From positions 84,139,657-84,203,656 of the forward strand of contig NC_092091.1 of the NCBI RefSeq assembly GCF_045679555.1: a DNA stretch of 64,000 nucleotides. Direction: 5' to 3'. Made by a program: the position numbers and the translations under genes. Below are positions 4,441-64,000 of the stretch, piece by piece; the stretch's first letter is position 1; every line of letters starts with the position of its first letter. The notes below the pieces were generated by a model. The model was given only the letters and a program-made list of their open reading frames with translations. It ran no database searches and was not told where the DNA came from. This DNA comes from Salvelinus alpinus. Its lineage: Eukaryota; Chordata; Actinopteri; Salmoniformes; Salmonidae.

Positions 4441-4560
4441 GACAACTCAGGACAGAGAGGTAGTTCAGGACAAAGAGGTAGTTCAGGACAAAGAGGTAGT
4501 TCAGGACAAAGAGGTAGTTCAGGACAAAGAGGTAGTTCAGGACAAAGAGGTAGTTCAGGG
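4441..4560. repeat. 18-bp minisatellite, about 6-7 copies
   Basis: Tandem ggacaaagaggtagttca units (first copy ggacagag). The period is a multiple of three, which explains the short open frames on both strands. Confidence 0.9.
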
Positions 4561-7295
4561 CACTAGTGTAGCCAGCTGGTTGAGAGGGCACTAGTGGAGC
4601 CAGCTGGTTGAGAGGGCCATAGTGGAGCCAGCTGGTTGAGAGGGCACTAGTGTAGCCAGCTGGTTGAGAGGGCACTAGTGTAGCCAGCTGGTTGAGAGGG
4701 CACTAGTGTAGCCAGCTGGTTGAGAGGGCCATAGTGGAGCCGGCTGGTTGAGAGGGCACTAGTGTAGCCAGCTGGTTGAGAGGGCACTAGTGTAGCCAGC
4801 TGGTTGAGAGGGCACTAGTGTAACCAGCTGGTTGAGAGGGCACTAGTGTAGCCAGCTGGTTGAGAGGGCACTAGTGTAGCCGGCTGGCTGAGAGGGCTCT
4901 AGTGGAGACGGCAGTCTGAGAGGGCCCTAGTGAAGCCGGCTGACTGATAGGGCCATAGTGGAACCACCTGACAGATAGGGATCTAGTGGAGCCGACTGAC
5001 TGAGAGGGTCCTAGTGGAGCCGACTGACTGAGAGGGTCCTAGTGGAGCCGACTGACTGAGAGGGTCCTAGTGGAGCCGACTGACTGAGAGGGTCCTAGTG
5101 GAGCCGACTGACTGAGAGGGTCCTAGTGGAGCCGACTGACTGAGAGGGTCCTAGTGGAGCCGGCTGGCTGAATGGGACCTAGTGGAGCCGACTGACTGAG
5201 AGGGTCCTAGTGGAGCCGACTGACTGAGAGGGTCCTAGTGGAGCCGACTGGCTGAGAGGGTCCTAGTGGAGCCGACTGACTGAGAGGGTCCTAGTGGAGC
5301 CGACTGACTGAGAGGGTCCTAGTGGAGCCGACTGACTGAGAGGGTCCTAGTGGAGCCGACTGGCTGAGAGGGACCTAGTGGAGCCGGCTGGCTGAGAGGG
5401 TCCTAGTGGAGCCGGCTGGCTGAGAGGGCCCTAGTGGAGGAGGCTGGCTGAGAGGGCCCTAGTGGAGCAGGCTGGCTGAGAGGGCCCTAGTGGAGGAGGC
5501 TGGCTGAGAGGGCCCTAGTGGAGCAGGCTGGCTGAGAGGGCCCTAGTGGAGCAGGCTGGCTGGCTGAGAGGACCCTAGTGTAGCAGGCTGGCTGAGAGGG
5601 CCCTAGTGGAGCCGGCTGGCTGGCTGAGAGGGCCCTAGTGGAGCCGGCTGGCTGGCTGAGAGGGCCCTAGTGGAGTCAGCTGGCTGAGAGGGCCCTAGTG
5701 GAGGAGGCTGGCTGAGAGGGCCCTAGTGGAGCAGGCTGGCTGAGAGGGCCCAAGTGGAGCAGGCTGGCTGGCTGAGAGGACCCTAGTGTAGCAGGCTGGC
5801 TGAGAGGGCCCTAGTGGAGCCGGCTGGCTGGCTGAGAGGGCCCTAGTGGAGCCGGCTGGCTGGCTGAGAGGGCCCTAGTGGAGCCGGCTGGCTGGCTGAG
5901 AGGGCCCTAGTGGAGGAGGCTGGCTGAGAGGGCCCTAGTGGAGCAGGCTGGCTGAGAGGTCCCTAGTGGAGGAGGCTGGCTGAGAGGGCCCTATTGGAGC
6001 AGGCTGGCTGAGAGGGCCCGAGTGGAGCAGGCTGGCTGAGAGGGCCCCTGGTGGAGCAGGCTGGCTGAGAAGGCCCTAGTGGAGGAGGCTGGCTGAGAGG
6101 GCCCTATTGGAGCAGGCTGGCTGAGAGGGCCCGAGTGGAGCAGGCTGGCTGAGAGGGCCCTAGTGGAGTCAGCTGGCTGAGAGGGCCCTAGTGGAGGAGG
6201 CTGGCTGAGAGGGCCCGAGTGGAGCTGGCTGGCTGAGAGGACCCTAGTGGAGTCAGCTGGCTGAGAGGACCCTAGTGGAGACGGCTGGCTGAGAGGGCCC
6301 TAGTGGAGGAGGCTGGCTGAGAGGGCCCGAGTGGAGCTGGCTGGCTGAGAGGGCCCTAGTGGAGGAGGCTGGCTGAGAGGGCCCTAGTGGAGCAGGCTGG
6401 CTGAGAGGGCCCTAGTGGAGCAGGCTGGCTGGCTGAGAGGACCCTAGTGTAGCAGGCTGGCTGAGAGGGCCCTAGTGGAGCCGGCTGGCTGGCTGAGAGG
6501 GCCCTAGTGGAGCCGGCTGGCTGGCTGAGAGGGCCCTAGTGGAGGAGGCTGGCTGAGAGGGCCCTAGTGGAGCAGGCTGGCTGAGAGGTCCCTAGTGGAG
6601 GAGGCTGGCTGAGAGGGCCCTATTGGAGCAGGCTGGCTGAGAGGGCCCGAGTAGAGCAGGCTGGCTGAGAGGGCCCCTGGTGGAGCAGGCTGGCTGAGAA
6701 GGCCCTAGTGGAGGAGGCTGGCTGAGAGGGCCCTATTGGAGCAGGCTGGCTGAGAGGGCCCGAGTGGAGCAGGCTGGCTGAGAGGGCCCTAGTGGAGTCA
6801 GCTGGCTGAGAGGGCCCTAGTGGAGGAGGCTGGCTGAGAGGGCCCGAGTGGAGCTGGCTGGCTGAGAGGACCCTAGTGGAGCAGGCTGGCTGAGAGGGCC
6901 CTATTGGAGCAGGCTGGCTGAGAGGGCCCGAGTGGAGCAGGCTGGCTGAGAGGGCCCTAGTGGAGCAGGCTGGCTGAGAGGACCCTAGTGGAGCAGGCTG
7001 GCTGAGAGGACCCTAGTGGAGCAGGCTGGCTGAGAGGGCCCTAGTGGAGCAGGCTGGCTGAGAGGACCCTAGTGGAGCAGGGTGGCTGAGAGGACCCTAG
7101 TGGAGTCAGCTGGTTGAGAGGGCCCTAGTGGAGAAGGCTGGCTGAGAGGGCCCTAGTGGAGCAGGCTGGCTGAGAAGGCCTTAGTGGAGCAGGCTGTCTG
7201 AGAGGGCCCTAGTGTAGCAGGCTGGCTGAGAGGGCCCTAGTGGATCAGGCTGGCTGAGAGGGCCCTAGTGGAGCAGGCTGGCTGAGAAGGCCTTA
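4560..7295. repeat. 28-29-bp minisatellite, about 2.7 kb, with higher-order duplication
   Basis: Roughly 95 copies of a unit such as gccctagtggagcaggctgg plus ctgagagg. The left end uses gtagccagctggttgag variants, the middle gagccgactgactgag, the right gagcaggctggctgag, so subtypes are clustered. A stretch of mixed variants near 5760-6170 recurs at about 6420-6830. The array is contiguous with the 18-bp array and the dispersed repeat to its left. Confidence 0.95.
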
Positions 7296-7615
7296 GTGGA
7301 GCCCTTCCCTTACTCTTTCTCTCTTCTCCACAAATCTATCTCCCCCCTCTCTTCCCTCCCTCTCTCTTCCCTTCCCTTCTCTCTCTTTCTCTCCCCTCCC
7401 CCCTCTCTTCCCTCCCTCTCTCTTCCCTCCCCTTCTCTCTCATTCTCTCTCCTCCACAATTCTCTCCTTCCCCTCTCCTTTTCTCTCCCTTACCCTCCTC
7501 CCTCCTCTACCTCCTCTCTCCCCTACCCTCCTCTGTCCCCTCCCGTCCTCTGCTCTCCCCACCCTTCCTCTCTCCTCCCTCTCGTTCTGCTCATCTCTCT
7601 CTCTAACTATCTCTT
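7296..7615. repeat. Pyrimidine-rich tract
   Basis: About 320 bp of C and T with rare purines on the plus strand, related to the larger tract at 12207-13350; both precede the same duplicated block. The open frames through it have no coding support. Confidence 0.9.
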
Positions 7616-17984: not shown

Positions 17985-19498
17985 AGACCATCATCAATCA
18001 GTAGCTGGAGTTCCATCTCAGAAGCTCTACTGACCATCATCAATCAGTAGCTGGAGTTCCATCTCAGAAGTTCTACTGACCATCATCAATCAGTAGCTGG
18101 AGTTCCATCTCAGAAGTTCTACTGACCATCATCAATCAGTAGCTGGAGTTCCATCTCAGAAGTTCTACTGACCATCATCAATCAGTAGCTGGAGTTCCAT
18201 CTCAGAAGTTCTACTGACCATCATCAATCAGTAGCTGGAGTTCCATCTCAGAAGATCTACTGACCATCATCAATCAGTAGCTGGAGTTCCATCTCAGAAG
18301 TTCTACTGACCATCATCAATCAGTAGCTGGAGTTCCATCTCAGAAGCTCTACTGACCATCATCAATCAGTAGCTGGAGTTCCATCTCAGAAGCTCTACTG
18401 ACCATCATCAATCAGTAGCTGGAGTTCCATCTCAGAAGCTCTACTGACCATCATCAATCAGTAGCTGGAGTTCCATCTCAGAAGTTCTACTGACCATCAT
18501 CAATCAGTAGCTGGAGTTCCATCTCAGAAGATCTACTGACCATCATCAATCAGTAGCTGGAGTTCCATCTCAGAAGCTCTACTGACCATCATCAATCAGT
18601 AGCTGGAGTTCCATCTCAGAAGCTCTACTGACCATCATCAATCAGTAGCTGGAGTTCCATCTCAGAAGTTCTACTGACCATCATCAATCAGTAGCTGGAG
18701 TTCCATCTCAGAAGCTCTACTGACCATCATCAATCAGTAGCTGGAGTTCCATCTCAGAAGTTCTACTGACCATCATCAATCAGTAGCTGGAGTTCCATCT
18801 CAGAAGCTCTACTGACCATCATCAATCAGTAGCTGGAGTTCCATCTCAGAAGCTCTACTGACCATCATCAATCAGTAGCTGGAGTTCCATCTCAGAAGTT
18901 CTACTGACCATCATCAATCAGTAGCTGGAGTTCCATCTCAGAAGCTCTACTGACCATCATCAATCAGTAGCTGGAGTTCCATCTCAGAAGTTCTACTGAC
19001 CATCATCAATCAGTAGCTGGAGTTCCATCTCAGAAGCTCTACTGACCATCATCAATCAGTAGCTGGAGTTCCATCTCAGAAGTTCTACTGACCATCATCA
19101 ATCAGTAGCTGGAGTTCCATCTCAGAAGCTCTACTGACCATCATCAATCAGTAGCTGGAGTTCCATCTCAGAAGCTCTACTGACCATCATCAATCAGTAG
19201 CTGGAGTTCCATCTCAGAAGTTCTACTGACCATCATCAATCAGTAGCTGGAGTTCCATCTCAGAAGATCTACTGACCATCATCAATCAGTAGCTGGAGTT
19301 CCATCTCAGAAGCTCTACTGACCATCATCAATCAGTAGCTGGAGTTCCATCTCAGAAGCTCTACTGACCATCATCAATCAGTAGCTGGAGTTCCATCTCA
19401 GAAGTTCTACTGACCATCATCAATCAGTAGCTGGAGTTCCATCTCAGAAGATCTACTGACCATCATCAATCAGTAGCTGGAGTTCCATCTCAGAAGCT
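17985..19498. repeat. 46-bp minisatellite, about 33 copies
   Basis: Unit gaccatcatcaatcagtagc, tggagttccatctcagaag, then [c/t/a]tctact. The only common variable base is the one after agaag. Homogeneity is very high, which suggests recent expansion. Confidence 0.97.
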
Positions 19499-20467
19499 CC
19501 TCTCAGTTCAGACACAGTGGAGTTCTAAGAACCTCATTCTGCTGCATTAAACAACCAGTTGATGCAGTATTATGACATCATCTTGTCATTTCACTAAGTG
19601 TCTAATGTGAACTGTGTAATCTACTGTAATTTACAGTACTGTAGTATATTACTGTCAGCACTTCTAAGGGTCATTTTGAAACACGTATCTTTCATTGTTT
19701 TCTATTGGATCAACTGGTAGTTAAAATGACTAAATTGAAAAAAGATATAAATATGTTGTGTTTTGGTGATTAAACCAACGTTCTCATTACATTTCACAAT
19801 AAACTTCTGTTCTGAATCAATGGTTGTGTGGTGAGAGATGTTTACAATCCAAATGAATGAATGAATGACAGGTTTAGAATGAAAGACTGTCTGTGTTACA
19901 AGTTGACCAGTTAGGAGTTTTGTACTATGAGTTGTGAAAATGTACCACATAAAAGGTATAATGTTTTAACTCTTCATCGTTGGGGTCTCGTGAGCATTTC
20001 ACAGTAAAGTCTACACCAGTTGTATTCAACACATGTTATTTATGTTTATGTATTTAAGACACTGCATCTCAGTACAAGAGGTGTCACTGAAGTACCTGGT
20101 TTGAATCCAGGCTGCATCACATCCAGCTGTTATTGGGAGTCCCATAGTGTGGTGCACAATTGGCCCAGTGTTGTCCGGGTTTGGCTGGGATAGGCCGTCA
20201 TTGTAAATAACAATTTGTTCCTAACTGACTGTGTGGGAGGATTGTCCAGTCATCTGGTGATTTTCAGTAATCTATACTGTTCTCTTTGAAGTAGAAATAT
20301 GAATCGATATAAGTTTAAATACTAGACATGTGTAAGCAGAATGAAGGCTGAGCCCATGTGAGTGTACAAAGCTGGATCAACATGGAGTCACTATTAGACA
20401 TGTAAAAAACAGAACGTAAGCAGAATCTGTGTAGATGAGGCAAGGAGACTAACAAGACGTGTCTGGT
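19499..20467. other. Unassigned stretch containing a SINE fragment
   Basis: No protein-coding gene recognised; the SINE fragment is listed separately. Confidence 0.4.
20078..20265 (+). mobile_element. tRNA-derived salmonid SINE fragment
   Basis: Contains a Pol III box-B-like ctggtttgaatccaggctgc, followed by gattggg-like cccatagtgtggtgcacaat, tggcccagtgttgtccgggt and taggccgtcattgtaaataa, the conserved body of the common salmonid tRNA-type SINE family. The head before box B and the A/T tail are damaged. Confidence 0.7.
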
Positions 20468-29898: not shown

Positions 29899-30190
29899 CA
29901 TTCTACCAACCCAACAGATGTTTCTACTACAGTGAATATTAACCAATGAGGTGGGTCTTTACACATTCTACCAACCCAACAGATGTTACTACTACAGTGA
30001 ATATTAACCAATGAGGTGGGTCTTTACACATTCTACCAACCCAACAGATGTTTCTACTACAGTGAATATTAACCAATGAGGTGGGTCTTTACACATTCTA
30101 CCAACCCAACAGATGTTACTACTACAGTGAATATTAACCAATGAGGTGGGTCTTTCCACATTCTACCAACCCAACAGATGTTTCTACTAC
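29899..30190. repeat. 65-bp minisatellite, about 4.5 copies
   Basis: Unit cattctaccaacccaacaga, tgttactactacagtgaata, ttaaccaatgaggtgggtct, ttaca. It abuts the 42-bp array without spacer. Confidence 0.95.
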
Positions 30191-33030
30191 CCCGCTGTCT
30201 GAAACGCTCATCCAGACAGTCCTCTGGGTAACCCCGCTGTCTGAAACGCTCATCCAGACAGTCCTCTGGGTAACCCCGCTGTCTGAAACGCTCATCCAGA
30301 CAGTCCTCTGGGTAACCCCGCTGTCTGAAACGCTCATCCAGACAGTCCTCTGGGTAACCCCGCTGTCTGAAACACTCATCCAGTCCTCTGGGTAACCCCG
30401 CTGTCTGAAACACTCATCCAGACAGTCCTCTGGGTAACCCCGCTGTCTGAAACACTCATCCAGACAGTCCTCTGGGTAACCCCGCTGTCTGAAACACTCA
30501 TCCAGACAGTCCTCTGGGTAACCCCGCTGTCTGAAACGCTCATCCAGACAGTCCTCTGGGGAACCCCGCTGTCTGAAACGCTCATCCAGACAGTCCTCTG
30601 GGTAACCCCGCTGTCTGAAACACTCATCCAGACAGTCCTCTGGGTAACCCCGCTGTCTGAAACACTCATCCAGACAGTCCTCTGGGTAACCCCGCTGTCT
30701 GAAACACTCATCCAGACAGTCCTCTGGGTAACCCCGCTGTCTGAAACGCTCATCCAGACAGTCCTCTGGGTAACCCCGCTGTCTGAAACACTCATCCAGA
30801 CAGTCCTCTGGGTAACCCCGCTGTCTGAAACACTCATCCAGACAGTCCTCTGGGTAACCCCGCTGTCTGAAACACTCATCCAGACAGTCCTCTGGGTAAC
30901 CCCGCTGTCTGAAACACTCATCCAGACAGTCCTCTGGGTAACCCCGCTGTCTGAAACACTCATCCCGACAGTCCTCTGGGGAACCCCGCTGTCTGAAACG
31001 CTCATCCAGACAGTCCTCTGGGGAACCCCTCTGTCTGAAACACTCATCCAGACAGTCCTCTGGGTAACCCCGCTGTCTGAAACACTCATCCAGACAGTCC
31101 TCTGGGTAACCCCGCTGTCTGAAACGCTCATCCAGACAGTCCTCTGGGTGACCCCGCTGTCTGAAACGCTCATCCAGACAGTCCTCTGGGTGACCCCGCT
31201 GTCTGAAACGCTCATCCAGACAGTCCTCTGGGTGACCCCGCTGTCTGAAACGCTCATCCAGACAGTCCTCTGGGTAACCCCGCTGTCTGAAACGCTCATC
31301 CAGACAGTCCTCTGGGTAACCCCGCTGTCTGAAACGCTCATCCAGACAGTCCTCTGGGTAACCCCGCTGTCTGAAACACTCATCCAGACAGTCCTCTGGG
31401 TAACCCCGCTGTCTGAAACACTCATCCAGACAGTCCTCTGGGTAACCCCGCTGTCTGAAACGCTCCTCCAGACAGTCCTCTGGGTAACCCCGCTGTCTGA
31501 AACGCTCATCCAGACAGTCCTTTGGGTAACCCCGCTGTCTGAAACGCTCATCCAGACAGTCCTCTGGGTAACCCCGCTCTCTGAAACACTCATCCAGACA
31601 GTCCTCTGGGTAACCCCGCTGTCTGAAACGCTCATCCAGACAGTCCTCTGGGTAACCCCGCTGTCTGAAACGCTCATCCAGACAGTCCTCTGGGTAACCC
31701 CGCTGTCTGAAACGCTCATCCAGACAGTCCTCTGGGTAACCCCGCTGTCTGAAACGCTCATACAGACAGTCCTCTGGGTAACCCCGCTGTCTGAAACGCT
31801 CATCCAGACAGTCCTCTGGGTAACCCCGCTGTCTGAAACACTCATCCAGACAGTCCTCTGGGTAACCCCGCTGTCTGAAACGCTCATCCAGACAGTCCTC
31901 TGGGTAACCCCGCTGTCTGAAACGCTCATCCAGACAGTCCTCTGGGTAACCCCGCTGTCTGAAACGCTCATCCAGACAGTCCTCTGGGTAACCCCGCTGT
32001 CTGAAACGCTCATCCAGACAGTCCTCTGGGTAACCCCGCTGTCTGAAACGCTCATCCAGACAGTCCTCTGGGTAACCCCGCTGTCTGAAACGCTCATCCA
32101 GACAGTCCTCTGGGTAACCCCGCTGTCTGAAACGCTCATCCAGACAGTCCTCTGGGTAACCCCGCTGTCTGAAACGCTCATCCAGACAGTCCTCTGGGTA
32201 ACCCCGCTGTCTGAAACGCTCATCCAGACAGTCCTCTGGGTAACCCCGCTGTCTGAAACGCTCATCCAGACAGTCCTCTGGGTAACCCCGCTGTCTGAAA
32301 CGCTCATCCAGACAGTCCTCTGGGTAACCCCGCTGTCTGAAACGCTCATCCAGACAGTCCTCTGGGTAACCCCGCTGTCTGAAACGCTCATCCATACAGT
32401 CCTCTGGGTAACCCCGCTGTCTGAAACGCTCATCCAGACAGTCCTCTGGGTAACCCCGCTGTCTGAAACGCTCATCCAGACAGTCCTCTGGGTAACCCCG
32501 CTGTCTGAAACGCTCATCCAGACAGTCCTCTGGGTAACCCCGCTGTCTGAAACGCTCATCCAGACAGTCCTCTGGGTAACCCCGCTGTCTGAAACGCTCA
32601 TCCAGACAGTCCTCTGGGTAACCCCGCTGTCTGAAACGCTCATCCAGACAGTCCTCTGGGTAACCCCGCTGTCTGAAACGCTCATCCAGACAGTCCTCTG
32701 GGTAACCCCGCTGTCTGAAACGCTCATCCAGACAGTCCTCTGGGTAACCCCGCTGTCTGAAACACTCATCCAGACAGTCCTCTGGGTAACCCCGCTGTCT
32801 GAAACGCTCATCCAGACAGTCCTCTGGGTAACCCCGCTGTCTGAAACGCTCATCCAGACAGTCCTCTGGGTAACCACGCTGTCTGAAACGCTCATCCAGA
32901 CGGTCCTCTGGGTAACCCCGCTGTCTGAAACGCTCATCCAGACAGTCCTCTGGGTAACCCCGCTGTCTGAAACGCTCATCCAGACAGTCCTCTGGGTAAC
33001 CCCGCTGTCTGAAACACTCATCCAGACAGT
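30190..33030. repeat. 42-bp minisatellite, about 67 copies, derived from a Penelope-like gene
   Basis: Unit ccccgctgtctgaaacgctc, atccagacagtcctctgggt, aa. The period is 14 codons, so several frames are open for hundreds of codons on both strands. In one minus frame the unit reads LDERFRQRGYPEDC, which is the continuation of the Penelope-like reverse transcriptase fragment at 33030-33300. Copies alternate acgctc and acactc (Arg/Cys in that frame). One unit near 30390 lacks 4 bp and shifts the frame. Confidence 0.95.
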
Positions 33031-33300
33031 GGGTAACTGCCTGAAACGCTCATCCAGCTTGTCATAGTCACTCTGTGTACCACTAAACCTGCGTCTGCGA
33101 CAGTATTGGCTGATGGAGAGGCTATTTTCTAGGGGTGTAGGATGGAAGCTAACAGGGAATTCCTGTCCGTCGACTTCCTGTTTAGGTCTGTGCTAAAGCC
33201 ACCCCTCTCCCTCTTAATCAAAATGTCCAGATAACTTGTTTCATGTGCATCAAAGGTGAGGGTGAATTTCAGATGACAGAAGTCACATTTAGGTGCCAGG
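33030..33300 (-). mobile_element. Penelope-like retroelement reverse transcriptase fragment
   Basis: The minus strand reads PKCDFCHLKFTLTFDAHE, TSYLDILIKRERGG, FSTDLNRKSTDRNSLL and, after a stop and a shift, RRRRFSGTQSDYDKLDERF. The SYLDILI, TDLxRKxTDRNxLL and RFxxRGYP motifs in this order are characteristic of the C-terminal part of Penelope-like reverse transcriptases. It is truncated upstream and replaced downstream by the 42-bp array. Confidence 0.75.
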
Positions 33301-37555: not shown

Positions 37556-37790
37556 AAAGCCTTGACATTACAAATATGTTTTAAAGGAGCGGGACATTTT
37601 TTACAATGAGGAAATAATATGTCATGTTTTACACGTACCTCAGCCATCATTGTGAATGGTGTCTTATGCAGTGACAAAATTCGTTTTACTGATGCAGTAA
37701 ATCTAATACTTAGGTGTTTTTAGGCATGAAAGGTCTGCGGTGATTCCGTGGTTATAAGTTACTGACCTTGGAATACATTTCTGGCCATGC
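37556..37790. other. Unassigned stretch between arrays
   Basis: No gene or known element recognised. Confidence 0.4.
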
Positions 37791-37799
37791 TGGCAGGGT

Positions 37800-39457
37800 C
37801 TGAATCAAACCCAATGACCACCTGGCACACTGACAGGGTCTGAATCAAACACAATGTCCATCTGGCACACTGACAGGGTCTGAATCAAACCCAATGTCTA
37901 CCTGCCACACTGACAGGGTCTGAATCAAACCCAATGACCACCTGGCACACTGACAGGGTCTGAATCAAACCCAATGTCCACCTGGCACACTGACAGGGTC
38001 TGAATCAAACCCAATGACCACCTGGCACACTGACAGGGTCTGAATCAAACCCAATGTCCACCTGGCACACTGACAGGGTCTGAATCAAACCCAATGACCA
38101 CCTGGCACACTGACAGGGTCTGAATCAAACCCAATGTCCACCTGGCACACTGACAGGTTCTGAATCAAACCCAATGTCCACCTGGCACACTGACCGGGTC
38201 TGAATCAAACCCAATGTCCACCTGGCACACTGACAGGGTCTGAATCAAACCCAATGTCCACCTGGCACACTGACAGGGTCTGAATCAAACCCAATGTCCA
38301 ACTGGCACACTGACAGGAGACAGGGTCTGAATCAAACCCAATGACCACCTGGCACACTGACAGGGTCTGAATCAAACACAATGTCCATCTGGCACACTGA
38401 CAGGGTCTGAATCAAACCCAATGTCTACCTGCCACACTGACAGGGTCTGAATCAAACCCAATGACCACCTGGCACACTGACAGGGTCTGAATCAAACCCA
38501 ATGTCCACCTGGCACACTGACAGGGTCTGAATCAAACCCAATGACCACCTGGCACACTGACAGGGTCTGAATCAAACCCAATGTCCACCTGGCACACTGA
38601 CAGGGTCTGAATCAAACCCAATGACCACCTGGCACACTGACAGGGTCTGAATCAAACCCAATGTCCACCTGGCACACTGACAGGTTCTGAATCAAACCCA
38701 ATGTCCACCTGGCACACTGACCGGGTCTGAATCAAACCCAATGTCCACCTGGCACACTGACAGGGTCTGAATCAAACCCAATGTCCACCTGGCACACTGA
38801 CAGGGTCTGAATCAAACCCAATGTCCAACTGGCACACTGACAGGAGACAGGGTCTGAATCAAACCCAATGACCACCTGGCACACTGACAGGGTCTGAATC
38901 AAACCCAATGACCACCTGGCACACTGACAGGGTCTGAATCAAACCCAATGTCCACCTGGCACACTGACAGGGTCTGAATCAAACCCAATGTCCACCTGGA
39001 ACACTGACAGGGTCTGAATCAAACCCAATGTCCACCTGGCACACTGACAGGGTCTGAATCAAACCCAATGTCTACCTGGCACACTGACAGGGTCTGAATC
39101 AAACCCAATGTCCACCTGGCACACTGACAGGGTCTGAATCAAACCCAATGTCCACCTGGCACACTGACAGGGTCTGAATCAAACCCCATGTCCACCTGGC
39201 ACACTGACAGGGTCTGAATCAAACCCAATGACCACCTGGCACACTCAGGGTCTGAATCAAACCCAATGTCCACCTGGCACACTGACAGGGTCTGAATCAA
39301 ACCCAATGTCCACCTGGCACACTGACAGGGTCTGAATCAAACCCCATGTCCACCTGGCACACTGACAGGGTCTGAATCAAACCCAATGACCACCTGGCAC
39401 ACTCAGGGTCTGAATCAAACCCAATGTCCACCTGGCACACTGACAGGGTCTGAATGT
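37800..39457. repeat. 40-bp minisatellite, about 41 copies, with 527-bp higher-order duplication
   Basis: Unit cacctggcacactgacaggg, tctgaatcaaacccaatgwc. Marker variants (caggttctga, ccgggtctga, gacaggagacaggg) recur at a spacing of 527 bp between 37.8-38.33 and 38.33-38.85 kb. Confidence 0.97.
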
Positions 39458-51484: not shown

Positions 51485-52895
51485 ACACACACCAGGACAA
51501 CAATACATCATAGTCTATGTGGAGGATAAATAACTACACACCAGGACAACAATACATCATAGTCTATAGAGGATAAATAACTACACACCAGGACAACAAT
51601 ACATCATAGTCTATGGAGGATAAATAACTACACACCAGGACAACAATACATCATAGTCTATGTGGAGGATAAATAACTACACACCAGGACAACAATACAT
51701 CATTGTCTATGTGGAGGATAAATAACTACACACCAGAACAACAATACAGCATAGTCTATGGAGGATAAATAACTACACACCAGGACAACAATACATCATA
51801 GTCTATATGGAGGATAAATAACTACACACCAGAACAACAATACATCATAGTCTATGTGGAGGATAAATAACTACACACCAGGACAACAATACATCATAGT
51901 CTATATGGAGGATAAATAACTACACACCAGGACAACAATACATCATAGTCTATATGGAGGATAAATAACTACACACCAGGACAACAATACATCATAGTCT
52001 ATATGGAGGATAAATAACTACACACCAGGACAACAATACATCATAGTCTATGGAGGACAAATAACTACACACCAGGACAACAATACATCATAGTCTATGT
52101 GGAGGATAAATAACTACACACCAGGACAACAATACATCATAGTCTATATGGAGGATAAATAACTACACACCAGGACAACAATACATCATAGTCTATGTGG
52201 AGGATAAATAACTACACACCAGACCAACAATACATCATAGTCTATGTGGAGGATAAATAACTACACACCAGGACAACAATACATCATAGTCTATGTGGAG
52301 GATAAATAACTACACACCAGGACAACAATACATCATAGTCTATGTGGAGGATAAATAACTACACACCAGGACAACAATACATCATAGTCTATGGAGGATA
52401 AATAACTACACACCAGAACAACAATACATCATAGTCTATGTGGAGGATAAATAACTACACACCAGGACAACAATACATCATAGTCTATGGAGGATAAATA
52501 ACTACACACCAGGACAACAATACATCATAGTCTATGTGGAGGATAAATAACTACACACCAGGACAACAATACATCATAGTCTATGTGGAGGATAAATAAC
52601 TACACACCAGAACAACAATACATCATAGTCTATGGAGGATAAATAACTACACACCAGGACAACAATACATCATAGTCTATATGGAGGATAAATAACTAAA
52701 CACCAGGACAACAATACATCATAGTCTATGGAGGATAAATAACTACACACCAGGACAACAATACATCATAGTCTATGTGGAGGATAAATAACTACACACC
52801 AGGACAACAATACATCATAGTCTATGGAGGATAAATAACTACACACCAGGACAACAATACATCATAGTCTATGTGGAGGATAAATAACTACATTG
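51485..52895. repeat. 46-49-bp minisatellite, about 29 copies
   Basis: Unit ggataaataactacacacca, ggacaacaatacatcatagt, ctatgtgga, with a 3-bp length variant (ctatgga) and ctatatgga subtypes interspersed. Confidence 0.97.
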
Positions 52896-57830: not shown

Positions 57831-58140
57831 TACATGGACAAAAGTATGTGGAACTCAGCAGTGAGTTTTACAACAGAGGATTATTTTTACGCTCTACGTG
57901 GTTCAACACTCGGCGGTCCGTTCTGTCAGCTTGTGTTGTCTACCACTTCACGGCTGAGCCGTTGTTGCTCCTAGACGTGCCACGTTAAGTCACTGAGATC
58001 TTCAGTGAGACCATTCTACTGCCGATGTTTGTCTATGGAGATTGCATGGCTGTGTGCTCGAGTTTATACACCTGTCAGCAACAGGTGTGGCTGAAATAGC
58101 CGAATCCACTGATGTCCACATACATTTGGCCATATAGTGT
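57831..58140. mobile_element. Tc1-derived MITE
   Basis: Left terminus tacatggacaaaagtatgtg, right terminus gtccacatacatttggccat atagtg, inverted relative to each other and related to the ends of the element at 10124-11305. The inside also holds the Tc1 leader (ggctgaaatagccgaatcca). About 310 bp, no transposase. Confidence 0.8.
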
Positions 58141-58153
58141 GTCTTGTTATTAC

Positions 58154-58444
58154 CTGAGCAGATCACTGTGAGTCCAGGAGAGACTAGCTTATAGCTTCTT
58201 CTGGAACACTCCCTCAGTGAAGATTCAGACTCAGACCCAGAACATTGAACTTCAAACCCTCTAGTGGTGTTTCCAGTTAGTACTGAAACAGTGGAGCCAC
58301 AACCCAGCTGTCTACACACTACTGCAGCTACATCCTCCTGGTCCCAGTCATCAGTTCCCACAGTCCTCCACTCTCCCTGGTCGTACCGCTCCACTCCACC
58401 AGCACAGCGACTGCCTCCTCCCACCAGCCTCACATCATCAGGCT
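58154..58444 (-). CDS. SRCR-Ig receptor, SRCR domain 3 exon
   Basis: Acceptor ttctcag, donor tcag|gtaata, 291 nt, reading EPDDVRLVGGGSRC, GEWRTVGTDDW, VVCRQLGCGSTV, FEVQCSG, LRECSR and GLTVICSG. Six cysteines. Compared with domains 1 and 2 it lacks the second (SVC position) and seventh (before the last), which form one disulfide in group-B SRCR domains, so that bond has been lost as a pair. Confidence 0.88.
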
Positions 58445-58569
58445 CTGAGAAAAGAAAAGAGAGAGACAGTAATCTTACTATTTTCTCACTAAAACACACC
58501 TATATTGTCTCTCATATTCTTCACTCCAGGTGAGAAACAATGTTGATTGAGTGACAAACTGTTTCTTAC

Positions 58570-58875
58570 CTGAGCAGGTGAGTCCAACAGCATTACCAGG
58601 TAGGCAGGTGTTGTGTTTTCTGTCTGAGGTGTCACAGTCCAGGAGAAGGGACTCTTTGCCTTTACACTGGAACTCTTTATCCCAGGTCTGACCCTCACCT
58701 CCTCCATAGAGCCCCCCCTGTAGAGCTGCAGGAGCCCCACAGCCAAGCTCCCCACAGACTACCTCTGCATCCTGCCGGTCAAAGTCAGCTTCACACACTG
58801 AGGCCCAGGACTGATTGGACTTCACCTCCACTCTCCCAGAGCAGAGACCAGCTCCATCCACAAGCCGCACAGACT
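58570..58875 (-). CDS. SRCR-Ig receptor, SRCR domain 2 exon
   Basis: Acceptor tttctccag, donor tcag|gtaaga, 306 nt. Reads ESVRLVDGAGLCSGRVEV, SWASVCEADFD, AEVVCGELGCGAP, KEFQCKGKES, LLLDCDTS, NTCLPGNAVGLTCSG. All eight group-B cysteines are present. One domain per exon with phase-1 ends, as usual for SRCR genes. Confidence 0.92.
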
Positions 58876-59303
58876 CTGGAGAAAAAGAGTTGGTTGAACA
58901 TTCAATCAGTTTTGTTGATGACACTGTCGAGGACTAAACACAAATATGTTGGATAAAAGATTGTAGTTTGCTATGTTTGATACTGTAAGAGGTAGAAATG
59001 GGTTCTTAGTCACTCAGGATCGGGTTGGGAATAATGCAGGCAGGAGACAGGAATAAGTTCACTTCACTTTATAGAAAATAAACAGCTGGACATCCATCAG
59101 GCAGCTTCACTTCAGTACCATCTGAACTACAATGATCTGCCCATGAACATCTCCCATAAACCAATATGACAAACACAAATATAATGTTTAAATACATCTG
59201 ACATCTCTCCCTCTCTTTAAATGAAATAAAAACACATAAAACATGATACATGGTAATATTATATAATGTACAAATAAATCTCTCAATATGACCAGTCTCT
59301 TAC

Positions 59304-59612
59304 CTGAACAGGTCACATGATGATAATATCCACCATCACAGACACCAGGTCCTCCTTCTCTGATGTCACACTGTCTAATAGAAGACTCATTTCCATCACA
59401 TCCCAATAGTGCGACTCTTCTTCTTCCATCTTCAATCAGAGGTCCAATAGATTCAGCTACAGGATTCCCACAGTCCAGCTCTCTACACACAACCTTAGTC
59501 TCTCTCATGCCCCACAACCTAGAACATAGACCCGACCACTCTCCTCTGTAGAAGGCTTCCACTGTCCCAGAACAGGAAGTGGTCCCATTCACTAGTCTGA
59601 CTGAGTATTCAG
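59304..59612 (-). CDS. SRCR-Ig receptor, SRCR domain 1 exon
   Basis: Acceptor gtttacag, donor tcag|gtaaga, 309 nt. Reads AEYSVRLVNGTTSCSGTVEA, GEWSGLCSRLW, KVVCRELDCGNPV, VALLGCDGNES, IRQCDIREGG, GVCDG and HHVTCSG. Eight cysteines, group B. This is the outermost SRCR domain. Overall gene (56568-59873, minus): leader end, three SRCR, Ig, transmembrane, tail, about 470 residues in the window. A cell-surface pattern-recognition or adhesion receptor is the family-based inference. Confidence 0.92.
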
Positions 59613-59843
59613 CTGTAAACAGCAGAGAGGAAAACACAGTGGTGAGGACAGATGATGACAGTGATTCTGTTATTCTAACAGCAGTAATGCTTTGTGGTTG
59701 ACAAGTATTAGTAGTTGCATAAAACACTACTTGTTATTGGGTTTTAGAATGGTTTGTATGGACACATGAATTTCTCCATGTGGGATAATAAAGTTTACTA
59801 ATATTGAACTGCTATAATCACTGTAGATTTATACTCCACCTAC

Positions 59844-59873
59844 CTGGTGGACTGACGCTTTGAGCCTGGAGAT
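59844..59873 (-). CDS. SRCR-Ig receptor, 30-nt mini-exon (leader end)
   Basis: Acceptor tttctcctcag, donor ccag|gtaggt. It encodes LQAQSVSPP and, across the junction, the Ala that begins AEYSVRL. It is too short to start the protein; the initiating signal exon is not in the window. The copy B signal exon at 13763-13805 shows what it probably resembles. The LINE inserted from about 59938 lies between. Confidence 0.75.
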
Positions 59874-59937
59874 CTGAGGAGAAAGAGAGGAGTCAGAGGA
59901 GAAAGGGAGGAGTCAGAGGAAGAGAGAGACAGAGGAG

Positions 59938-60487
59938 GGACTTCCACCCTGCCACAATCCAAAGAATAAACGCCAGCCTATCCCGGGACTGTGCCCTGCG
60001 ACCCAATGTACACCTGGCCCACCATCCCACCCTCGATCTGGACTGTCTCTATGACCATGTTCACCTGTACAGGGAGACAGTCCCCATCCTTGCCAAGACT
60101 CTCAAGGACGTCGCTTTAAACCGCAGCCCGACCTCTCCACCCAGGAACAGCGGAGCAATCTCCACCCCGCCGAGATCACCGAGACAACATCCCGGACCAG
60201 CACCCTGGACCCCCCAGCCACGACCACAGCACCACCAACCTCAATGCCCACCACAGCCAGCGCAGCACAGACCACTCCAGCCCAGCTTCAGAGCCACCCA
60301 GATGAGGCCTACCACCCCCCTCCTCCCCACCGCAGACCCACACCTGGAGGAGCCACAGTCCAGCAGGCAGAGCTACGCACAGGCTGTGAGAGGAGCAACT
60401 GGCCCAGCCCCCACCAACCAAATGAGTGACATTAAACAAATGCTGAGTCTACTATGCTCACATGTGATGGGCCGAGGGTCATGGTAA
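59938..60487 (+). mobile_element. LINE ORF1 C-terminal part
   Basis: An open frame runs from the insertion boundary (FHPATIQRINASLSRDCALR) through a proline/histidine-rich segment to QSYAQAVRGATGPAPTNQ, MSDIKQMLSLLCSHVMG and taa at 60485-60487. Position before an endonuclease ORF2 identifies it as the end of LINE ORF1, 5'-truncated. Homology with the 11.87-12.11 kb copy of the SRCR intron ends where it begins. Confidence 0.65.
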
Positions 60488-60684
60488 GATGAGCACAAGA
60501 ACTCCACCATTCTCACACTACATCCACCCAAGTGGCATGACACAAATTCTATCTAAATGATAAACAAATCACATTTGCAAAATAAGAGTTTACTTTAATT
60601 GAAAAATCCTATTTTAATGGTTCTTCTTGGATTGTGAGTGTTTGTCTCATTTTGAAAGGTAAAGAAAAGAGAAAAAAAAAAGTT

Positions 60685-62094
60685 ATGAAGTCTTTTTACG
60701 TTACACGTTGGAATATACAAGGATTGAAGTCCTCTGCTTTTGGGCTAAAGAGCAGAAACCCAGACTTCCTGAAAGAAATTGATGATGTTGATATTTTAGT
60801 ACTACAGGAAACATGGTGCAGAGGTGATGTTTCCACTGGCTGTCCACTAGGTTATAGGGAGATAATCATACCATCCACTAAATTAAAAGGAATCAAACAG
60901 GGCAGAGACTCAGGGGGAATGCTAATATGGTATAAATCTGAACTAATTAATTCAATCGAATTGATCAAAACAGGAGAATTCTTTATCTGGTTAAAAATCA
61001 ACAAGGAGGCTATCTTGACAGATAAAAACGTCTTCCTCTGTGCCACATACATTCCCCCCTCAGAGTCACCCTACTTCAACGAAGAGAGCTTCTCCATTCT
61101 AGAGGGGGAGATTAGTCACTTTCAGGCCCAAGGCAACGTACTGGTCTGTGGAGACCTGAATGCTAGAATAGCAGAAGAGCAAGACACTATTAACAGTCAT
61201 GGGGATAAACACCTACCAGGAAGCAATAACCTTTCCCTCCCCACATATCCCCACAGAAACAACTATGACAAAGTGAAAAACAAAAATGGATTACAGCTCC
61301 TGAAGCTCTGTGGAACACTGGGTCTGTACATAGTCAATGGCAGGCTGAGAGGGGACTCTTTTGGTAGGTACACCTACAGCTCATCCCCTGGCAGCAGCAC
61401 TGTAGACTACTTCCTCACCGACCTAAACCCAGAGTCTCTCAGAGCCTTCACAGTCAGCCCACTAACACCTCTCTCAGACCACAGTAAAATCACAGTGTAT
61501 CTGAGAAGAGCAGAACCCAACCATGAAGCATCACGGCCCAATAAATTACATGGTACTAAACAAGCCTATAGATGGAGTGCAAACAGTACAGACATCTACC
61601 AAAAAGCAATTAGTAGCCAAAAAATACAATCTCTCCTGGACAACTTTTTAGCCTTAACATTCTCCTTCAGCAATGAAGGTGTAAATTTGGCCGTTAGGAA
61701 CATAAACTTTATATTTGACAAATTAGCCTCCTTGGCTAATCTAAAGAAGCATAAGAGCAAACCAAAAATAACAGATAATGAAAAATGGTTTGATAATGAT
61801 TGCAAAAATCTAAGAAAGTCATTGAGAAATATATCTAATCAAAAACACAGAAAACCAGACAACAAAAATATACGCCTCCAATATGGGGAAACACTGAAGC
61901 AATACAAACGCACCCTAAGAACAAAAAAGGAACAGCACATTAGAAATCAGCTGGATGGAATTGAGGAATCCATAGAATCAAACCACTTCTGGGAGAATTG
62001 GAATAAATTAAACAAACCTCATCATGAGGAGTTGGCTATCCAAAATGGGGATATGTGGAGAAATCACTTTGCAAACCTCTACAGCACATATGTC
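60685..62094 (+). CDS. LINE ORF2, endonuclease half, open into a hAT element
   Basis: The first ATG after a stop at 60583 is 60685. About 470 codons encode an apurinic-type (exonuclease-endonuclease-phosphatase) domain: RWNIQGL near residue 9, QETW with the catalytic Glu at 42, CATYIPP, GDLNAR at 156-161, TYSSSPGSSTVDYFLTD, and LSDHSKI with Asp265-His266. A lysine-rich linker (WFDNDCKNLRK, KKEQHIRNQL, NHFWENWNKLNK) follows, then FANLYSTY, where the reverse transcriptase would start. There the hAT element begins. All expected catalytic positions of the endonuclease are present and the frame has no stop. The fragment at 53.0-53.6 kb shows the C-terminal end of a similar LINE. Confidence 0.85.
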
Positions 62095-64000
62095 AGAGTC
62101 AAGGCCCGCGGGCCACATCCGGCCCGCGAGAAGGTTTTTTACGGCCCCTGGGATGATCTTGATTTATTATTAGAACCGGCCCGCAGACCGCAGCAAGCCG
62201 GCAGCCCGCAGATCTTTTACACGCACCAATACTACATTTCCCACAATGCAACGGTGACGCACCGAGCAGTAGGCTGCTTCATTTCAATATTTATTGGCAC
62301 AGCAGTCGTCAGCATCACAGTAAAATTAACTTTCAGATACCCATCAAAAATGGCAAAACGGAAGGTGGACACTGAGAACCGGGGGTTTCAAACAAGGTGG
62401 GAGTCGGAGTATATGTTCACGGAGGTAGCTGGAAAACCTGTGTGTCTTCTGTGTGGAGAAAGTGTGGCGGTACTGAAAGAGTATAATCTGAGACGACATT
62501 ATGAAACGAAACACGCGGACAAAAACAAGAATATGGACATGGAACAAAGGCTACAAAAGGCAGAGGAATTAAAACGAGGCCTCAAATCTCGACAGGCTCT
62601 GTTCAAAAAAGCCAAATCACAAGGCCAGGCTGCTGTCAAGGCCAGTTTTATTTTGGCAGAAGAGATCGCTAAATCAGCCCGGCCATTTACGGAGGGGGAT
62701 TTCATCAAAAACTGCATGATTAAAGTTTGTGACGAAGTTTGCCCAGAAAAAAGGCAACTCTTTTTAAATGTGAGTCTGAGCAGAAACACCATTGCCGAGA
62801 GAGTAGACCAGTTGTCCATCAATCTAAAAGAGCAGCTTGTGAAAAAGGGAAAAGATTTCATTGCATATTCCTTGGCTGTGGATGAGAGCACCGACATTTC
62901 TGACATTGCCCAGTTGTCAATTTTCATCCGCGGAGTGGACTCCAGCCTAAGCGTGACAGAGGAGTTTTTGGCTTTACGTCCTATGCATGGCACAACTACG
63001 GGGCATGATTTGTATGAAGAGGTGTCAAGATGTGTAAATGAGATGGAGCTGCCTTGGGAAAAACTCGTGGGTTTGACAACCGACGGAGCACCTGCGATGT
63101 GTGGACACAGGAGCGGACTGGTGGCGAAGATACGGGAAAAGATGCAAGAGGAAAACGCGACAGGTGAGCTGACAGCTTATCATTGTATCATACACCAGGA
63201 AGCGTTGTGCGGTAAAGCCTTGAAAATGGAGCATGTAATGAGCATCATCACGCGCACAGTTAACTTTATCAGAGCCAAAGGTTTGAATCACCGCCAGTTC
63301 AAGGCATTTCTGACGGAGTTAGAAACGGAGCATGGTGATTTGCCTTATCACACAGAGGTGCGATGGCTAAGCCAGGGAAAGGTGCTTCAAAGATGTTTCG
63401 AGCTTCGTGAGGAGATTTGTCTGTTCTTGGACAGCAAAGGGAAAGACACAACACAACTCCGAGACGAAATGTTTCTGTGTGAAATGGCTTTTCTGTGTGA
63501 CATTACGAGTCATCTGAATGCAATGAACTTGCAGCTGCAGGGTCGGGATCATGTCATCTCTGATATGTACAGTACAGTGAAGGCATTTAAAACCAAACTG
63601 ACTCTGTGGGAGACGCAGATGCGGAAAGAAAATTTGAGCCACTTTCCCAGCTGCCAGACCATGAAAGAGAAGCTCTCTACCAGTGCGTTCCCGAGCGCAC
63701 AGTTGGCTGATAAAATAGGTATGCTTGCCGCTGACTTTCGACGCCGATTTGCTGACTTTGAAGCACAAAAAAGCAGGTTGGAACTGCTCGGTAACCCATT
63801 TGCTGTTGACGTGGAAAGCTCACCACCAAACCTCCAAATGGAGTTGATTGACCTCCAATGCAATGATGCACTGAGGGCAAAATATGCGGCAGTGGGTGCT
63901 GCGGAGTTCGCCCGTTTCCTCCCCGACACAATGCCCCAGCTGCGCATCCAGGCTGCTCAAACGTTGTCTATGTTTGGCAGCACATACCTGTGTGAACAAC
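62095..64000 (+). mobile_element. hAT transposon, 5' part, inserted in LINE ORF2
   Basis: Begins near cagagtcaaggcccgcgggc followed by cacatccggcccgcgag, the terminal sequence style of hAT elements whose transposases are annotated as GTF2IRD2/ZBED-like. About 255 bp of leader precede the transposase ATG. The right end is beyond the window. Confidence 0.8.
62350..64000 (+). CDS. hAT transposase, GTF2IRD2/ZBED-like (partial, runs off the window)
   Basis: ATG at 62350 (MAKRKVDTENRGFQTRW) and 550 codons to the window edge without a stop. Residues 32-55 form a BED-type zinc finger: CLLC at 32-35, H50 and H55. A coiled, basic region follows. The RNase H-like hAT core shows LAVDESTDISD with Asp178, LVGLTTDGAPAMCG with Asp245, and YHCIIHQEALCGK around 277-289. 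The Glu-containing C-terminal dimerisation part is mostly outside. It would bind transposon ends and cut/rejoin DNA in the nucleus. The reading frame is the same as that of LINE ORF2 upstream and the junction is stop-free. Intactness suggests a young copy. Confidence 0.88.
   Translation, partial: MAKRKVDTENRGFQTRWESEYMFTEVAGKPVCLLCGESVAVLKEYNLRRHYETKHADKNKNMDMEQRLQKAEELKRGLKSRQALFKKAKSQGQAAVKASFILAEEIAKSARPFTEGDFIKNCMIKVCDEVCPEKRQLFLNVSLSRNTIAERVDQLSINLKEQLVKKGKDFIAYSLAVDESTDISDIAQLSIFIRGVDSSLSVTEEFLALRPMHGTTTGHDLYEEVSRCVNEMELPWEKLVGLTTDGAPAMCGHRSGLVAKIREKMQEENATGELTAYHCIIHQEALCGKALKMEHVMSIITRTVNFIRAKGLNHRQFKAFLTELETEHGDLPYHTEVRWLSQGKVLQRCFELREEICLFLDSKGKDTTQLRDEMFLCEMAFLCDITSHLNAMNLQLQGRDHVISDMYSTVKAFKTKLTLWETQMRKENLSHFPSCQTMKEKLSTSAFPSAQLADKIGMLAADFRRRFADFEAQKSRLELLGNPFAVDVESSPPNLQMELIDLQCNDALRAKYAAVGAAEFARFLPDTMPQLRIQAAQTLSMFGSTYLCEQ

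Follow-up and report, generated by a model that had tools for sequence, protein, structure and literature searches.

A hAT transposon that begins inside the second open reading frame (ORF2) of a long interspersed nuclear element (LINE) gives rise to one continuous frame of 1,161 codons in a stretch of 64,000 nucleotides of Salvelinus alpinus DNA (the window, C6:84139657–84203656). Very probably, this frame is the by-product of an in-phase hAT insertion into LINE ORF2 and a subsequent hAT-associated deletion; it appears to be a chance product of normal transposon activity and not a new gene. In the present assembly the insertion is in phase, the hAT leader is open and the 3′ half of the LINE is absent; the mechanism, and the order of insertion first and deletion second, are what we infer. 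All searches of the species' own genome covered 2.37 Gb in 928 contigs. The features that make up the frame, all on the plus strand, are as follows.

59935–62084, plus: 5′-truncated LINE, consisting of an ORF1 tail without a start codon, the ORF1–ORF2 spacer and the first ~467 codons of ORF2 (alignment to LINE copy L054)
60685–62084, plus: endonuclease region of LINE ORF2, open, reverse transcriptase lost (Pfam Exo_endo_phos, 4.5e-12)
62077–62084, plus: left 8-base-pair (bp) target copy, CTCTACAG, which is LINE sequence (empty LINE site)
62085–64742, in the window to 64000, plus: hAT element of 2658 bp with ends CACATATGTCAGAGTC and GACTTTGACACCCCTG (copy comparison)
62085–62349, plus: hAT leader (265 bp), which has neither a stop nor an ATG in the transposase frame
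62350–64000, stop TGA at 64168 outside the window, plus: hAT transposase of 606 residues with its own ATG (Pfam)

A single frame spans LINE ORF2 and the hAT transposase

An earlier reading, made from the sequence only, had proposed that a LINE endonuclease frame starting at ATG 60685 runs without a stop to the end of the window. Translation of 60685–64000 bore this out, and DNA fetched past the window extended the open frame to a TGA at 64168. The resulting 1,161 codons comprise ~467 of LINE endonuclease, ~88 of leader and the 606 residues of the transposase; the ORF as listed begins at GTG 60634, and the nearest upstream in-frame stop is at 60583. Between 62060 and 62400 there were zero stops in the transposase frame compared to 5 and 3 in the other two frames, and three ATGs within 62090–62246 were all out of the transposase frame. 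The proposed fusion is correct insofar as an intact hAT element begins inside LINE ORF2 and shares its orientation and phase, but comparison with other copies did not support the clean nest or the low-probability argument that came with it. Catalytic-looking motifs were present in both parts, as had also been claimed. They are QETW, GDLNAR and SDH in the endonuclease, whose catalytic meaning we assume from the family, and AVDESTD, TTDGAPAM, VRW and CEQLF in the transposase, which we take to match the DDE/RW catalytic residues of hAT enzymes. The catalytic residues that we sought do not appear in the excerpt of PMC10368747.

The LINE portion was compared with 40 scored copies of 2,165 candidates, of which 19 others were fetched; the 39 other listed copies were 99% identical over 785 bp, and the ORF2 start MKSFYV was common to 17 of the 19. 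Alignment of 59929–62091 to L054 gave two blocks with 99.3% and 98.8% identity, and the SRCR repeat common to other units stops at 59934. Because the match starts inside ORF1 of L054, the window copy is 5′-truncated. An apparent 1,893-codon ORF in L054 was discarded, as a run of N had been read as open (2,506 N in this copy). A longer copy (L055) contained an ORF1 of 507 residues and an unbroken ORF2 of 1151 residues, which matched Exo_endo_phos (4.1e-11) and RVT_1 (3.9e-42) in Pfam and R2 and LINE-1 ORF2 in the PDB; the window endonuclease alone gave one weak PDB match, to APEX nuclease (E 0.31). These domain matches point to a LINE, or non-LTR (long terminal repeat) retrotransposon, with an apurinic-type endonuclease, both domains being seen in L055 and only the endonuclease being left in the window copy.

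The same young LINE had ten matches on one strand at C2:70059566–70097050 (L056 is the first part), spaced ~4.0–4.2 kb apart and 99% identical, a tandem array that is unusual for retrotransposon insertion.

We set the ends of the hAT element by comparing 22 insertions, namely the window copy and 21 others in 19 fetched loci; these loci were drawn from the 39 other matches of a junction search whose ranking favours flanks like those of the window copy. The other copies and their 8-bp target duplications place the left end at 62085, ten bases further left than the ~62095 first suggested. A left end at 62094 with the duplication ACATATGT was ruled out, as the same letters occur inside other copies. 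The right terminus, 64742, lies outside the window, and the terminal inverted repeats match at 11 of 16 end bases. The transposase is complete at 606 residues, with its C-terminal end outside the window and the sequence TCAAAAATGG around ATG 62350. Its zinc finger had been labelled BED, but no BED model was listed, and Pfam instead gave zf-C2H2_12 (Spin-doc type) at 1.3e-9, or 2.2e-9 in a separate scan. DUF4371 matched weakly (0.00056, below the curated cut-off), and no hAT dimerisation model was listed among Pfam matches with E up to 0.1. PDB sequence searches returned nothing at E 0.01 for the fused protein and weak unrelated chains, with no convincing hAT match, for the transposase; single-sequence structure predictions of both parts were poor (mean pLDDT 41.0 and 33.1).

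The leader is open in all scored hAT copies and the target site keeps the frame open

The empty site CTCTACAG/CAATATAAC, or in a longer reading CTCTACAG/CAATATAACAAAG, was present in 19/19 other fetched LINE copies, which identifies CTCTACAG as the target of the hAT insertion. A protein search of the genome with the transposase yielded 72 scored copies of 7,963 candidates. All 72 matched over 606 residues without stops (the 71 others at ~100% in protein) and had at least 695 open codons, and the leader is therefore open in 72/72. A stop-free leader had earlier been offered as a reason to think the joined frame improbable. This argument is not supported, because an open leader shared by every scored copy is a family constant and no rarity; a simulation based on leader composition, run on 62094–62349 before the left end was corrected, found one given frame open in 6.9% of 20,000 runs. 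The chance component that remains is the orientation and phase of insertion only.

Most copies close immediately beyond the element. Exactly 695 open codons (606 + 89 codons, by arithmetic) were found in 50 of the 72 scored copies, with the stop two bases outside the element, and the six fetched full-length copies with this run (L014, L016, L024, L025, L026 and L028) carry TAG or TAA in the target copy. The target preference nnnTAnnn, with TA at positions 4–5 in 22/22 listed left target copies, sets TAA or TAG in the frame of the leader, as in CTCTAGAG and ATCTAAAG, and for this reason about two thirds of insertions (50/72 scored) are closed just outside the element. In the target of the window copy, CTCTACAG, the corresponding codon is TAC, a sense codon. 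The two frames are thus joined because the target supplies TAC and not TAA or TAG, the leader is open and the element landed in phase. Three target-like sites of the form nTCTAnnG occur on the plus strand of the endonuclease half, and the one that is in phase is the one that was used. From stop to stop the frame is 1,194 codons, the single outlier among the 72 scored copies (next 828, 757 and 743), and one such outlier is unremarkable for a large family with 7,963 candidate matches.

The family itself is very homogeneous. The first ~425 bp of the window hAT were 99–100% identical in 39 other copies (best 40 of 1,524 candidates), the 14 other full-length fetched copies were identical at 2654–2658 of 2658 positions, and three of the fetched copies (L021, L026 and L027) were fully identical to the window element. 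These identities indicate that the family is a very young, near-identical burst, for which recent activity appears to be the best explanation. Relative to the majority of the 19 fetched copies, the LINE part carries 12 base differences, of which 9 are private, and the hAT insertion is probably much younger than the LINE insertion.

Several arrangements of related copies were also observed. Locus L011 (C21:43340867–43345867) holds three internally deleted hAT copies, direct and inverted, joined via CTCTACAG and CTGTAGAG targets, as if hAT copies had inserted side by side. Full 606-residue hAT frames lie on one strand at C1:989386, 995943 and 1002433, with ~6.5-kb spacing, and close inverted pairs occur at C1:26784660/26789345 and C1:32921404/32923851. 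The spacing and inverted-pair geometry on C1 mark places where hAT-driven rearrangements might be sought.

In the assembly, the hAT element bridges two different target sites

The sequence-only reading envisaged a hAT element nested in LINE ORF2; a simple nest would have matching 8-bp duplications on both sides of the element. The flanks do not support this model. The right counterpart at 64743–64750 is CTCTACGT, which matches CTCTACAG at 6 of 8 bases. Where the 3′ half of the LINE should resume after the element, the sequence is CTCTACGTGGTTCAACACTC and a unit of an SRCR array. The first stretch right of the element resembles, we presume, a piece of a salmonid Tc1-type element. The right-flank sequence is 93–94% identical to SRCR units at 57892 and 97373, the latter beyond the window, and in both sister units the right-flank site is empty (TTTTTACG/CTCTACGTGGTTC, also read as CTCTACGT/GGTTC). 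The nearer of these units is the following feature.

57892–59934, minus: neighbouring SRCR-array unit, 93% identical to the right flank; its start is the empty right-flank site

Pfam found SRCR in 3/3 ORFs scanned of the window unit (6.8e-12 to 1.1e-21). The ~1,850 bp upstream of CTCTACGT that are common to both sister units are absent at the hAT locus. Thus, in this assembly the hAT element spans two sites that each have a complete 8-bp target of their own, and the reverse transcriptase half of the LINE is gone. Two different empty sites are stronger evidence for this arrangement than unmatched target copies alone.

The same two empty sites bear on the idea of a single hAT insertion exactly at an existing boundary between the LINE and the SRCR unit, with one target copy mutated later. 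The 6/8 match between the flanks speaks for this model. However, the element is unchanged compared to L021, L026 and L027, which makes two changes within 8 bases unlikely. In addition, the locus lacks both the LINE sequence that should follow CTCTACAG and the SRCR sequence that should precede CTCTACGT, and the empty site of each flank contains a complete target of its own. We regard an insertion at such a boundary as almost certainly not what happened.

We then favour a history that would start with a young 5′-truncated LINE lying in an SRCR gene array. In a first step, an active hAT element with an intact transposase would have inserted in the sense orientation after CTCTACAG in LINE ORF2. 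In a second step, the right end of the element would have become joined to the next SRCR unit at its CTCTACGT site, with removal of the reverse transcriptase half of the LINE and part of an SRCR unit. This second step might have occurred by aberrant joining of hAT ends (alternative transposition) or by homologous recombination of one hAT copy with another, near-identical one, and the present data fit both routes. A pattern search of the whole genome for the lost junctions found none that joins hAT to the 3′ half of the LINE, with up to 2 mismatches allowed, and none that joins an SRCR unit to the hAT left end, with up to 3; a deletion fits because neither of these junctions was found. The right junction that is present had an exact match only at the window locus genome-wide, with one other match at 3 mismatches.

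The main rival is an assembly artefact, in which a hAT locus in a LINE and another in the next SRCR unit were fused along their 2,658 near-identical bases and the intervening DNA was dropped. The many near-identical copies described above, the origin of the flanks from two different sites with different 8-bp copies, and the position of the locus in a highly repetitive array all speak for such an error. By contrast, the 119,844 bp surrounding the locus contain zero N, and a swap of assembled loci should have left the other two junctions elsewhere, where neither was found, but a collapse that dropped both of them, which is possible, would leave none to find. An artefact of this kind would in any case spare the left LINE–hAT junction, which is the source of the fused frame and is a normal insertion site. 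We consider misassembly unlikely, though it is the most serious competitor of insertion followed by deletion.

Several observations weigh against insertion followed by deletion as the full account. It draws on one genome and one assembled haplotype, from whose sequence the join is read, and the order of events is deduced rather than observed directly. Unmatched flanks also occur elsewhere: among the 21 other insertions of the fetched loci, 17 have perfect 8-bp target copies, 2 have a single mismatch and 2 have two mismatches, the latter both in the complex locus L011. Moreover, the differences between the LINE part and the majority of the 19 copies comprise 7 nonsynonymous and 5 synonymous changes, where 78% of possible changes are nonsynonymous (binomial 0.10). 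These counts give no clear signal of selection, but weak constraint on the LINE part is possible.

The fused frame is probably not expressed as one protein

A functional or domesticated fusion, in which the endonuclease and transposase act as one protein kept by selection, would account for the open frame of 1,161 codons, the catalytic-looking residues in both parts and the modest shortage of nonsynonymous change in the LINE part. Against it, the junction was matched only at the window locus (among the best 40 of 1,524 candidates in the species' own genome), identity of the hAT element to three fetched copies implies that selection has had little time to leave a trace, the LINE copy is truncated within ORF1, and the hAT element has its own ATG. 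We judge a selected fusion to be very improbable. Any transposase that is made most likely begins at the ATG of the hAT element at 62350, and since the LINE copy has lost its 5′ part, the fused protein is probably not produced. Similarly hard to credit is a fuller scenario, in which aberrant hAT end-joining in the vertebrate germline produced, in two steps, an endonuclease–linker–transposase ORF with transcription from the SRCR array, whose translated product of 1,161 residues could compete with the hAT transposase or redirect it.

A true fused gene would join two mobile-element enzymes into one protein, which the evidence does not support. What the locus provides is a worked case, with both empty sites and both lost junctions checked, in which a long multi-domain frame is traced to an in-phase insertion and a probable deletion. 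The locus further draws attention to a hAT family that is very young and near-identical and whose activity merits a test.

Relation to known elements and rearrangements

Nested mobile elements are commonplace. The literature searched contained no report of a fused LINE-endonuclease/hAT frame, which is not proof of absence. We presume that the window hAT resembles the hAT-6 or GTF2IRD2-like elements. As excerpted, PMC10641963 describes these transposons in fishes, reptiles and amphibians, with 28 autonomous copies, particularly in Atlantic salmon, and their misannotation as GTF2IRD2, and the window locus illustrates how gene finders could come to report frames of this sort. Features in common with that description are the hAT type, an intact ORF, 8-bp target duplications, inverted repeats and DDE/RW-looking residues; unlike those elements, the window copy sits in phase inside a LINE ORF, between flanks that do not match. 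In mammals, GTF2IRD2 has the status of an accepted host gene (PMC10641963, excerpt). The window frame resembles it and other host–transposase fusions in having a foreign N-terminal domain ahead of a hAT transposase, but it is a single junction of one mobile element with another, and nothing within the genome points to its conservation.

The 8-bp target copies also fit the Buster consensus nnnTAnnn given in the excerpt of PMC3517528, a likeness to this hAT family that is seen in the targets. In maize, the excerpted text of PMC3744419 describes a hAT element that lacks the matching duplication at one of its sides, in deletion and duplication products of reversed-ends or alternative transposition. 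The window copy likewise has one side without a matching duplication, but the event is deduced from one assembly, and the same structure would result from recombination of one copy with another. For salmon, the excerpt of PMC2198921 reports bursts of Tc1-like and piggyBac-like elements and does not mention hAT.

Searches of two non-fish collections, viral_contigs and genome_contigs, found no relatives of the hAT protein or the LINE endonuclease, and plasmid and phage collections, also non-fish, had none of the hAT protein; these results are silent on conservation in fishes. The leader motif CAGAGTCAAGGCCCGCGGGCC had no relative in viral_contigs.

Surrounding repeats

Units with the SRCR-unit right flank form a large array on both strands of C6 at ~83.25–85.95 Mb, including 57892–59934 of the window. 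There were 28 matches at 87–100% identity over all or most of a 251-base query, the window locus included, with SRCR domains tested in the window unit only. Long tandem repeat blocks, with copies ~80–99% identical, occur throughout the window, at 452–1646, 4557–7303, 17986–19499, 30189–33057, 37790–39455, 51487–52892 and other positions.

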